Source: Streptomyces sp. CC0208
Lineage (GTDB): Bacteria; Actinomycetota; Actinomycetes; Streptomycetales; Streptomycetaceae
Reading direction: 5' to 3'
DNA length: 64,000 bases
NCBI RefSeq assembly: GCF_003443735.1
Contig: NZ_CP031969.1
Location: 7,378,001 to 7,442,000 of the forward strand
Of the stretch, positions 31,264-34,701 are shown one piece after another. The first letter of the stretch is position 1; each line of letters begins with the position of its first letter. Below the pieces are notes generated by a model that saw only the letters and a program-made list of their open reading frames with translations, was not told the origin of the DNA and did not search any database. The position numbers were made by a program, and so were the translations under genes.

Positions 31264-31365
31264 GCCAAGGGAACGTGAACGGCTCCGGTCAGGGCTGATC
31301 AAGTGCGCCGGATCTGCAAGGATGAACGGCGAATCCAGAGTGTGAACAGCAGTGAGGAGAACGCC

Positions 31366-32385
31366 GTGTCGGGTATGTCGGCGGGCCGGTCAGCCATGCG
31401 GATGGGACCCGCTGAGCTGGTGCAGGCGGCGGCCATGGCCCGCCGCTTCTACCTGGAGGGCAAGTCCAAGATCCAGATCGCGGAGGAGTTCGGCGTCAGC
31501 CGCTTCAAGGTGGCCCGGGTTTTGGAGACCGCCCTCGAACGGGATCTCGTCCGCATCGAGATCCGCGTGCCGGCCGAGCTGGACGCGGAGCGCTCCGACG
31601 CGCTCCGGGCCCGCTACGGCCTCAGGCACGCCGTCGTGGTGGAGTCCCCGGCCGAGGCCGAGGAGACCCCCGACCCGGAGAACCTGGGAGAAGTGGCCGC
31701 CGACCTGCTCGGCGAACTGGTCGACGAGGGCGACATCCTGGGCCTGGCCTGGGGGCGTTCCACCATCCACATGGCGGCCGCCCTCGACCGGCTCCCGCCG
31801 TGCACGGTGGTGCAGTTGACGGGCGTGTACGACGCCGGGACCGCCGAGCGCGGTTCGGTGGAGGCGGTACGGCGGGCCGCCCAGGTGTCCGGCGGGGACG
31901 CCCACCCCATCTACGCGCCGATGCTGCTGCCGGACGCGGCCACCGCGATCGCGCTGCGCAACCAGCCCGGGATCGCCCGGGCCTACGAGTACTTCGACAA
32001 GGTCACGGTCGCCTGTGTCTCCATCGGCTCCTGGGAGCCGGGCATCTCGACGGTGCACGACATGCTCAGCGACGAGGAGCGCGGCCACTACGCCTCGCTC
32101 GGAGTCGCCGCCGAGATGTCCGCGCACCTCTTCGACACCGAGGGCCGCAGGGTCGGGCGGGACCTGGGCGAGCGATGCATCACCGTCAAGGCCGACCAGC
32201 TCCGCCGTATCCCCGAGGTCGTCGCGATCGCGGGCGGGCAGCGCAAGGCGGCCGCGATCGACGCGGTGCTGCGGTCCGGACTCGTCACCAGCCTGGTGAC
32301 GGACACCTCCGCCGCGGACTACCTGATGACGGCGGGGACACCGCCGAAGCCGGCGCTCAACAGGGCGGACCCGGACGGGCCCTGA
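31366..32385 (+). CDS. SorC/DeoR-type sugar-responsive transcriptional regulator
   Basis: A 339-residue protein with an N-terminal helix-turn-helix (YLEGKSKIQIAEEFGVSRFKVARVLE, about 24-49) and a C-terminal SorC sugar-phosphate-binding domain (about 65-325) with LGLAWGRST and GERGHYASLGVAAEMSAHLFD-like stretches (the last as DEERGHYASLGVAA). The GTG at 31366 is chosen because GAGGAGA is 5-6 bases upstream; earlier in-frame starts exist. It sits after rpe, so a pentose or deoxyribose phosphate effector is plausible but not shown. Confidence 0.88.
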   Translation: MSGMSAGRSAMRMGPAELVQAAAMARRFYLEGKSKIQIAEEFGVSRFKVARVLETALERDLVRIEIRVPAELDAERSDALRARYGLRHAVVVESPAEAEETPDPENLGEVAADLLGELVDEGDILGLAWGRSTIHMAAALDRLPPCTVVQLTGVYDAGTAERGSVEAVRRAAQVSGGDAHPIYAPMLLPDAATAIALRNQPGIARAYEYFDKVTVACVSIGSWEPGISTVHDMLSDEERGHYASLGVAAEMSAHLFDTEGRRVGRDLGERCITVKADQLRRIPEVVAIAGGQRKAAAIDAVLRSGLVTSLVTDTSAADYLMTAGTPPKPALNRADPDGP

Positions 32386-32425
32386 CGGAGGATCGTAAGG
32401 GGGCGGCCGTGGCAGCATCGAACGC

Positions 32426-32794
32426 ATGCTGCTGCGGTTCGTCTCCCGAATGCTTCTGTGCGTGCTGTTCCTGACGGGGTGTTCGGCCACCGACACCGAT
32501 CCGTCGCCGGGCGGGGGCCTGGCCACCGTCCAGGCGTCGGAGCTCCCGGCCGAGGCCCGGCAGACCCTCCAGCTCATCGACAGGGGCGGTCCGTTCCCGT
32601 ACGCCAAGGACGGCGCCGTCTTCGGGAACTTCGAGCGGCTGCTGCCCGCCCACCAACGCGGTTACTACCACGAGTACACCGTCCCCACGCCGGGCTCGCG
32701 CGACCGCGGAGCCCGGCGGATCGTCACCGGGCAGGGCGGCGAGGTCTACTACACCGATGATCACTACGACTCGTTCAGGGCGGTACTGAGATGA
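32426..32794 (+). CDS. RNase Sa/N1-T1-type guanyl-specific ribonuclease with lipobox
   Basis: A 122-residue protein whose residues 32-122 follow Streptomyces RNase Sa closely (LPAEARQTLQLI, GPFPYAKDGAVFGNFE, YYHEYTVPTPG, RRIVTG, YYTDDHY). Catalytic residues map to Glu83, Arg94, Arg98 and His113 (Glu54, Arg65, Arg69, His85 of RNase Sa). The N terminus is a signal peptide ending in LTGC (16-19), a lipobox, predicting a surface-anchored lipoprotein. Both disulfide cysteines of RNase Sa are missing. Its stop overlaps the start of a barstar-like gene, its likely inhibitor. Confidence 0.88.
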   Translation: MLLRFVSRMLLCVLFLTGCSATDTDPSPGGGLATVQASELPAEARQTLQLIDRGGPFPYAKDGAVFGNFERLLPAHQRGYYHEYTVPTPGSRDRGARRIVTGQGGEVYYTDDHYDSFRAVLR

Positions 32795-33126
32795 CGGCAC
32801 GCGCGGTCACGCTGGACCTCGACGGGGTCACGGACAAGGCGGGCCTGATGGACCGCTGCGCCCGGGACCTGCGGCTGCCGGACTGGTTCGGCCGCAACTG
32901 GGACGCGCTGGCCGACGTCCTCTCCGACCCGGGCCTGTGGTCCGAGAACTCCGGCGACGGCGACGGCGACGGCGACGGCGTCGGCGTCGGGGAGGAGACC
33001 GTCGTGGTCGTACGGCACTGGGACCGGTACGCCAAGGCGAGGCCCGACGAGTGGGCGACCGCGCGCGAGGTGTTCGCGCAGGCGTCCGCGCTCACCGTGG
33101 CGCTCGCGCTTGGAGATTCGTCCTAG
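32791..33126 (+). CDS. Barstar-family ribonuclease inhibitor
   Basis: A 111-residue cytosolic protein with the barstar core VTLDLDGVTDKAGLMDRCAR and LPDWFGRNWDALADVL, where the Asp of NWDAL corresponds to the RNase-contacting Asp39 region. It is co-translated (ATGA overlap) with the upstream RNase Sa-like gene, so it most likely protects the cell from that enzyme. A GDGDGDGDGVGV stretch at about residues 55-66 is inserted before the next strand and is encoded by a tandem hexanucleotide repeat. Confidence 0.88.
   Translation: MTARAVTLDLDGVTDKAGLMDRCARDLRLPDWFGRNWDALADVLSDPGLWSENSGDGDGDGDGVGVGEETVVVVRHWDRYAKARPDEWATAREVFAQASALTVALALGDSS
32953..32988 (+). repeat. Hexanucleotide tandem repeat in the barstar gene
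   Basis: Four perfect GGCGAC units (32953-32976) followed by two GGCGTC units (32977-32988). It encodes alternating Gly-Asp then Gly-Val. In-frame length variation by slippage would change only a loop length. Confidence 0.85.

Positions 33127-33216: not shown

Positions 33217-34701
<1,485 letters not shown>

Follow-up and report, generated by a model that had tools for sequence, protein, structure and literature searches.

RNase Sa and the barnase-barstar pair serve as textbook examples of how proteins fold and bind, and their natural role in the bacteria that produce them is, to our knowledge, still vague. The genome of Streptomyces sp. CC0208 encodes, within the stretch of 64,000 nucleotides analysed here (hereafter, the window), an RNase Sa-type protein with a predicted lipoprotein signal peptide and, immediately downstream, a barstar-family protein, which raises the question of where such an enzyme would act and against what the inhibitor would protect. 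We consider it fairly probable (roughly 0.6) that the locus encodes a membrane-tethered, guanyl-type RNase that degrades or scavenges RNA at the cell surface, together with a translation-coupled cytosolic barstar that also provides protection in trans.

The RNase and barstar genes and their surroundings

The two genes have the coordinates and reading frames assigned to them by the initial annotation (Table 1). The RNase precursor matches PF00545 with an E-value of 2.9e-26 (92.3 bits against a curated cut-off of 24), and its closest solved structure is RNase Sa3 (1mgr; i-E 5.3e-33). The AlphaFold2 model, in which the blocks of the catalytic domain have pLDDT values of 92-98 and residues 17-29 are below 50, aligns with RNase Sa2 (1py3_A) over 92 residues with a Z score of 19.2 and an rmsd of 0.6. 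Glu54, Arg65, Arg69 and His85 of RNase Sa correspond to E83, R94, R98 and H113; the initial annotation had noted that all four catalytic residues are kept, and they proved to be unvaried in all 111 cysteine-less and all 64 other relatives compared. By profile score, catalytic residues and modelled fold, the protein is an RNase Sa-like enzyme with putative guanyl-specific activity.

Table 1 Features of the RNase-barstar locus, in window positions
Feature	Position	Strand	Basis
SorC/DeoR-type sugar-binding regulator, upstream neighbour	31303..32385	+	PF04198, 236.5 bits
TGGCAGCATCG, promoter-like conserved element; gap of 5 nt to the RNase ATG	32410..32420	+	upstream-region comparison
RNase Sa-type ribonuclease precursor, 122 aa	32426..32794 (including stop codon)	+	PF00545, 92.3 bits; AlphaFold2 model
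Predicted lipoprotein signal peptide with lipobox L16-T17-G18-C19	32426..32482 (Cys19 codon 32480-32482)	+	orthologue comparison
Stalk of 12 residues from Cys19 to the catalytic domain, short, probably disordered	32483..32518	+	pLDDT, relatives
Catalytic domain, residues 32-122, with E83, R94, R98 and H113	32519..32791	+	alignment, model
4-nt overlap (ATGA) between the stop codon of the RNase gene and the start codon of the barstar gene; putative translational coupling	32791..32794	+	
Barstar-family inhibitor, 111 aa	32791..33126 (including stop codon)	+	PF01337, 80.1 bits; model
guaB1 (GMP reductase family), downstream neighbour	33250..34701	+	TIGR01303, 935.7 bits

The precursor has just two cysteines, C12 within the hydrophobic stretch and C19 within the lipobox; the catalytic domain contains none, and both cysteines of the RNase Sa disulfide are absent. 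With its lipobox and cysteine-free domain, the protein departs, as judged from its sequence, from RNase Sa proper, a secreted enzyme with one disulfide. The N-terminus, MLLRFVSRMLLCVLFLTGC-S, consists of a short basic n-region, a hydrophobic h-region and the lipobox, which is the layout of a bacterial lipoprotein signal and predicts lipidation and membrane location. A lipobox-like pattern appears in the last ten residues of 1.0% of the shuffles of this 19-residue N-terminus. The lipobox consensus, as given in an excerpt of PMC4941574, has Ala or Ser at position -2, where the window RNase has Thr. In 91 of 91 relatives, the residue right after the lipobox cysteine is Ser, Ala, Gly or Thr, and the stalks of these proteins comprise 5-80 residues and are rich in Ala, Gly, Ser, Pro and Thr. 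Genes for Lgt and LspA were found in the source genome. The same genome encodes a second RNase Sa (G000:C1:1667674-1667937), of the ordinary type: both cysteines are present, the signal peptide is rich in alanine, and no barstar adjoins the gene.

The product of the downstream gene, the single PF01337 match in the source genome (1.2e-22, 80.1 bits against a cut-off of 23.4), yields a model with a mean pLDDT of 78 that aligns with barstar (1x1y_E) over 85 residues (Z score 10.4, rmsd 2.0). Its D38 and D42, unvaried in 45 of 45 relatives, align with Asp35 and Asp39 of barstar, such that profile score, modelled fold and interface aspartates all place it in the barstar family, as a putative inhibitor of the adjoining RNase. 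Among 80 named loci, which represent the best 80 of 519 confirmed relatives, a barstar lies just downstream in 79, and 73 of these 79 have the in-frame NTGA overlap. A tandem run of GGCGAC/GGCGTC within the window barstar gene (32953-32988) encodes a Gly-Asp/Gly-Val repeat that is absent from the near relatives G140, G141 and G189.

In the barstar-RNase Sa complex (1ay7), Asp35 contacts Tyr86 and Arg40, and Asp39 contacts Arg65, according to an excerpt of PMC2231411. The equivalents of Tyr86 and Arg65 are retained in the window RNase; the equivalent of Arg40 is Phe, both here and in 67 of the 111 cysteine-less domains, in contrast to Arg in 59 of the 64 others, and therefore the pair may have a binding geometry of its own, different from that in 1ay7.

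The locus is a housekeeping gene row (priA-fmt-rsmB-rpe-sorC-guaB1), the neighbours of the pair being priA, fmt, rsmB, a gene for an MMPL transporter, rpe, sorC and guaB1. In the set of 80 Streptomyces genomes described below, guaB1 is present in all 80, and sorC-guaB1 neighbours without the RNase-barstar pair are common. A mechanical scan for promoters and terminators found nothing; the element TGGCAGCATCG emerged by comparison instead, occurring with at most one mismatch in 81 of 122 distinct regions upstream of lipobox RNases, against 0.4 expected in mononucleotide shuffles. Given that the first ATG or GTG follows 4-5 nt past the element in 80 of the 81 regions that have it, TGGCAGCATCG could be the extended -10 element of a near-leaderless mRNA. 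Among 12 loci with a barstar only, the element is found with at most two mismatches in G101 alone, the other 11 differing by 3-5.

This setting bears on defence against phages or foreign nucleic acids at the envelope, a role that the initial annotation had suggested and for which we found nothing specific. A surface RNase could meet the genomes of RNA phages; the phages of Streptomyces known to us are DNA phages. Neither the RNase nor the barstar matched any PADLOC-DB 2.0.0 model at an E-value of 0.001, and of the 10 proteins scanned, only RsmB and an amino-acid transporter matched a model, both being members of ordinary Pfam families; with such matches and housekeeping neighbours, a defence island was rejected. 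A tblastn search with the RNase (E 1e-5) gave no match in 50,697 phage records, and a phage origin was rejected on this ground, as was plasmid cargo, relatives being found in 17 of 72,556 plasmid records, with an identity below 60% in 15 cases. We consider the defence role extremely improbable. RNase Sa-like genes were observed on plasmids of Pseudomonadota (Citrobacter, Enterobacter, Escherichia, Salmonella, Caballeronia and Paraburkholderia), several of them without an entry in the PLSDB gene table, which is incomplete.

Lipobox, cysteines and barstar among the relatives

PF00545 was detected in 201 of 246 Streptomyces genomes. In a set of 80 genomes (67 with and 13 without PF00545), selected for few contigs, RNase and barstar matches were paired by position. 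We fetched 90 of the 94 RNase matches, excluding two fragments in G049 and frames of 2104 and 1193 aa, and classed them as 30 cysteine-less RNases (including L174, which has a stray cysteine), 59 two-cysteine RNases and one odd protein (L219). The lipobox LTGC at Cys19, pointed out in the initial annotation, has counterparts in all 30 cysteine-less orthologues (28 called by a pattern script, and LPVGC in L130 and LPAC in L157 by eye) and in none of the 59 two-cysteine paralogues. A barstar scoring 57-104 bits is encoded directly downstream, on the same strand, of all 30 cysteine-less RNases; this is the case for 12 of the 59 two-cysteine RNases, where the barstars shortly downstream are of another type (35-48 bits). 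The assumption that a secreted RNase Sa never adjoins a barstar, made from tblastn searches with the window barstar, was rejected in view of these 12 divergent barstars.

Several loci stand apart. The distinct barstars beside two-cysteine RNases (L135, L154, L183, L186, L190, L193, L196, L197, L200, L202, L205 and L209) share a motif like VNGPGGYFGRNLDAFADCL and, in most cases, a longer C-terminus. The barstar behind the lipobox RNase of G027 (L182), in which the profile match starts at position 26, may be broken, with its start out of frame. G049 contains two RNase pieces about 45 kb apart (G049:C1:8337995 and 8383423), the first with three in-frame stops, and an intact two-cysteine RNase Sa between them. 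RNase domains also occur in open frames of about 1200-2100 aa (G053:C2:29157-29453, G005:C1:2186677, G210:C1:615867 and G560:C2:190577) that look polymorphic-toxin-like; the one in G053 adjoins a strong barstar.

Beyond the genus, PF00545 was found in 14 of 296 genomes of a phylum sample and in 81 of 394 genomes of a class sample (Streptomyces included). We compared 32 of the 50 genomes outside Streptomyces with a match in the class sample (5 loci from the phylum sample, 7 from the class sample and 20 hand-picked) and three from other classes, and collapsed domains at least 90% alike, from 258 to 176. Across several families of the phylum, a barstar in cis accompanies 110 of the 111 non-redundant cysteine-less domains and 16 of the 65 others; two of these 65 (L174 and L087) have only a stray cysteine, and among the remaining 63, of the disulfide type, the count is 14. 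Profile search detected no barstar at L091 of Hamadaea. This distribution lends good support to the pairing with a barstar that the initial annotation had proposed.

Some cysteine-less relatives outside Streptomyces have a lipobox (L071 of Kribbella; L337, L338, L343, L345 and L350-L352), and others have a transmembrane-like stretch followed by a stalk rich in Ser, Thr, Pro and Ala (for example, L118, L120, L121 and L340), as called from hydropathy rather than by a trained predictor. Anchoring thus seems to be kept while the kind of anchor changes, and the retention of either a lipobox or a transmembrane-like N-terminus across the cysteine-less branch is our best argument that tethering matters; comparison gives the surface tethering suggested at the outset good support. 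The lipobox might instead serve for processing only, or be little used, with the RNase mainly shed or secreted in soluble form like RNase Sa; the stalks, only about 12 residues long in the source genome, look flexible and could be cut. That the motif is universal in the genus, and that a transmembrane-like stretch takes its place in many relatives elsewhere, suggests that anchoring itself is selected, and we consider a mainly soluble enzyme very improbable.

Lipobox, absence of cysteines and barstar do not always occur together. This strict association was rejected given the existence of mixed loci: a lipobox is combined with two cysteines and a barstar in L329 and L332, and with cysteines in L122 and L349, where a barstar was not found, and L353 has a transmembrane-like stretch, two cysteines and a barstar. 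These states show few independent changes, too few for testing correlated evolution. The AU test does not reject a single origin of the lipobox (p 0.20), which, like the mixed loci, tempers the argument from anchoring.

The initial annotation held that the enzyme had lost both disulfide cysteines. Their absence stands; the direction of the change is probably the reverse. The RNase tree (59 rows and 94 columns, five long or odd rows having been removed beforehand) was rooted with divergent relatives of one family, four rows or three after collapsing. In this tree, the RNases with the disulfide group in a single branch of 19 rows (support 89/92, not starred), outside which lie the cysteine-less RNases, nearly all with a barstar. 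The topology points to the disulfide having been gained in that branch, with the cysteine-less form probably older, which is a lean rather than proof because the outgroup branch is long and the alignment has only 94 columns. Barnase likewise lacks disulfides, according to an excerpt of PMC8625414.

Barstar-only loci and possible protection in trans

In the 80 Streptomyces genomes, the pair is located within 8 kb upstream of guaB1 in 22 and elsewhere in 8; a strong barstar without the RNase is found within 8 kb of guaB1 in 13 and elsewhere in 12, and 25 have neither. None of the 30 lipobox RNases in these genomes is kept without a barstar. On the guaB1 tree (79 rows with SH-aLRT support only; G180 was excluded, its guaB1 match ending early with an in-frame TAG), 12 rows show the barstar-only state within a distance of 1.2 kb; this requires 6 changes, at least 3 of them on well-supported branches. 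Remnants of the RNase gene persist beside the barstar in 3 of the 12 barstar-only stretches: in G101 (L279), the start and the end of the gene abut, that is, an internal deletion occurred, and in G091 (L272) and G104 (L281), the end only is left. In these genomes, therefore, the RNase was lost and the barstar was kept.

Barstar-only loci would fit orphan immunity and thereby bring in the main rival to surface RNA degradation, namely, contact-dependent competition or kin discrimination, in which the tethered RNase would enter or act on neighbouring hyphae and the barstar would confer immunity. The repeated origin of the barstar-only state on the guaB1 tree, with RNase remnants in three genomes, is compatible with such a role, as is the order of the genes, toxin then immunity; barnase-barstar pairs are termed a possible incipient toxin-immunity gene order in an excerpt of PMC3482391. 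The protein itself, however, consists of a signal peptide and one domain, 122 aa in all, with no large delivery module or translocation domain, and the lipid anchor would keep it on the producer. In coupled genomes, the median dN/dS values of 0.38 for the RNase and 0.54 for the barstar exceed those of the neighbours sorC (0.11) and guaB1 (0.17), which can reflect relaxed constraint or rivalry and does not decide between them; the catalytic domain is not polymorphic, and the locus is a housekeeping one.

RNase Sa is still encoded in 10 of the 13 barstar-only genomes, which argues against competition and makes self-protection the simpler account of most of them, leaving the other three unaccounted for. 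RNase Sa occurs with neither a barstar in cis nor a lipobox RNase in 24 genomes, 19 of which contain a barstar scoring 57 bits or more at another site. Such a barstar is less frequent in the two groups used for comparison, being found in 3 of the 13 genomes that lack these RNases (Fisher p 0.0015; G005, whose sole match lies in the 1193-aa frame, was excluded from this group) and in 3 of the 12 in which RNase Sa has a barstar of its own (Fisher p 0.003). The guaB1-tree clade to which the window belongs comprises 34 genomes; all 26 that encode RNase Sa have a strong barstar, whereas it is missing from 4 of the 8 that do not. Phylogenetically independent pairs mostly point in the same direction, and their number is too small for significance (median p 0.25 to 0.5); 5 of the 59 RNase Sa genomes have no barstar partner by the same criterion. 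Because most RNase Sa genomes without an adjoining barstar have a strong one elsewhere, the window-type barstar may also guard against the separately encoded, secreted RNase Sa.

Self-protection does not explain the retention of the barstar in three related genomes, G013, G107 and G110 (L239, L283 and L286), which have it at the sorC-guaB1 locus and have zero PF00545 matches, a situation that competition could accommodate. These barstars look constrained (dN/dS 0.15, three pairs); at the site equivalent to Tyr29, the Trp of the other barstars (in two cases, Tyr or His) is replaced by Arg or Gly, which speaks against competition. All told, we found nothing specific in support of the contact competition that the initial annotation had put forward, and consider it possible but unlikely.

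Proposed mechanism and known systems

We favour surface RNA degradation because of the housekeeping place of the locus, its stable orthology, and the lack of a delivery domain and of links to defence or phages. Under this reading, Sec would export the RNase, Lgt would attach a lipid to Cys19 and LspA would cleave the precursor, and the lipid and the flexible stalk would keep the enzyme at the outer surface of the cytoplasmic membrane. There, it would degrade RNA arriving at the surface or wall of the cell. The likeliest purpose is scavenging; this step of the proposal is the weakest. Requiring no disulfide, the RNase could fold and be active before export, which would be the reason for the coupling: the ATGA overlap would tie each translation of the RNase to that of a barstar that stays in the cytosol and inhibits any RNase left unexported. 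This barstar would probably also protect the cell from the separately encoded, freely secreted RNase Sa with its disulfide.

Folding without a disulfide in the cytosol, the gene overlap and the barstar-only loci, as seen in such pairs, are also what one would expect of an intracellular toxin-antitoxin module in which the RNase, with export as a secondary trait, attacks the RNA of its own cell whenever barstar runs short. Such a module would hardly account for the conserved export signal and anchor or for the 22 of 30 pairs within 8 kb of guaB1, and relatives are missing from the phage records searched and few on plasmids; we consider it highly improbable. Sequence by itself cannot choose among scavenging, competition and intracellular use.

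A bolder reading, which we regard as distinctly unlikely, takes the anchored, disulfide-free, barstar-coupled RNase as the ancestral actinobacterial state of RNase Sa and as a surface weapon or kin marker. If so, the secreted RNase Sa would have arisen later, as a released form stabilised by a disulfide and still dependent in trans on the old inhibitor, and the barstar-only strains would be immune non-producers.

Under the preferred reading of a tethered RNase acting on surface RNA, this sister branch of the RNase Sa lineage gives a handle on the natural role of these enzymes: the anchor would indicate where the enzyme works, and the coupling, when protection is needed, with the barstar-only genomes as natural controls. 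A simple rule is suggested for surviving the production of a potent RNase, namely, a disulfide or an inhibitor. The components are known, and the anchored, inhibitor-linked branch seems to be widespread and to be undescribed in the open-access literature searched: by title and abstract, we found no description of an anchored RNase Sa with a barstar, a weak absence given that subscription journals lie mostly outside this literature.

Compared with RNase Sa, Sa2 and Sa3 (PF00545), the window RNase has the same fold (Z scores of 18-19), 52-63% identity over the domain, and the equivalents of Glu54, Arg65, Arg69 and His85 as well as of Asn39, Glu41 and Tyr86. It differs in two further positions, with Gly for Gln38 and Phe for Arg40 of RNase Sa, and, whereas those enzymes have a disulfide and a lipobox-free secretory signal, it has a lipobox, no disulfide and an overlapping barstar gene. 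Barstar-like inhibitors of RNase Sa, SaI14 and others, are known from Streptomyces; they belong to the same family and to the same RNase Sa-producing genus, but the gene of the window inhibitor overlaps that of an RNase predicted to be anchored. Barnase and barstar of Bacillus, too, combine a disulfide-free RNase with a cytosolic inhibitor, share both folds with the window pair, and have Asp35 and Asp39 of barstar in common with it; barnase, however, shows only 20-28% identity to the window RNase in structure alignments and is unanchored, being released from the cell and paired with a protective intracellular barstar, according to excerpts of PMC8625414. Barnase-type polymorphic toxins with Imm-barstar, as described in an excerpt of PMC3482391, resemble the window pair in toxin fold, immunity family and toxin-immunity order, but these toxins have a large delivery protein and an exchangeable toxin cassette, whereas the window RNase has neither.
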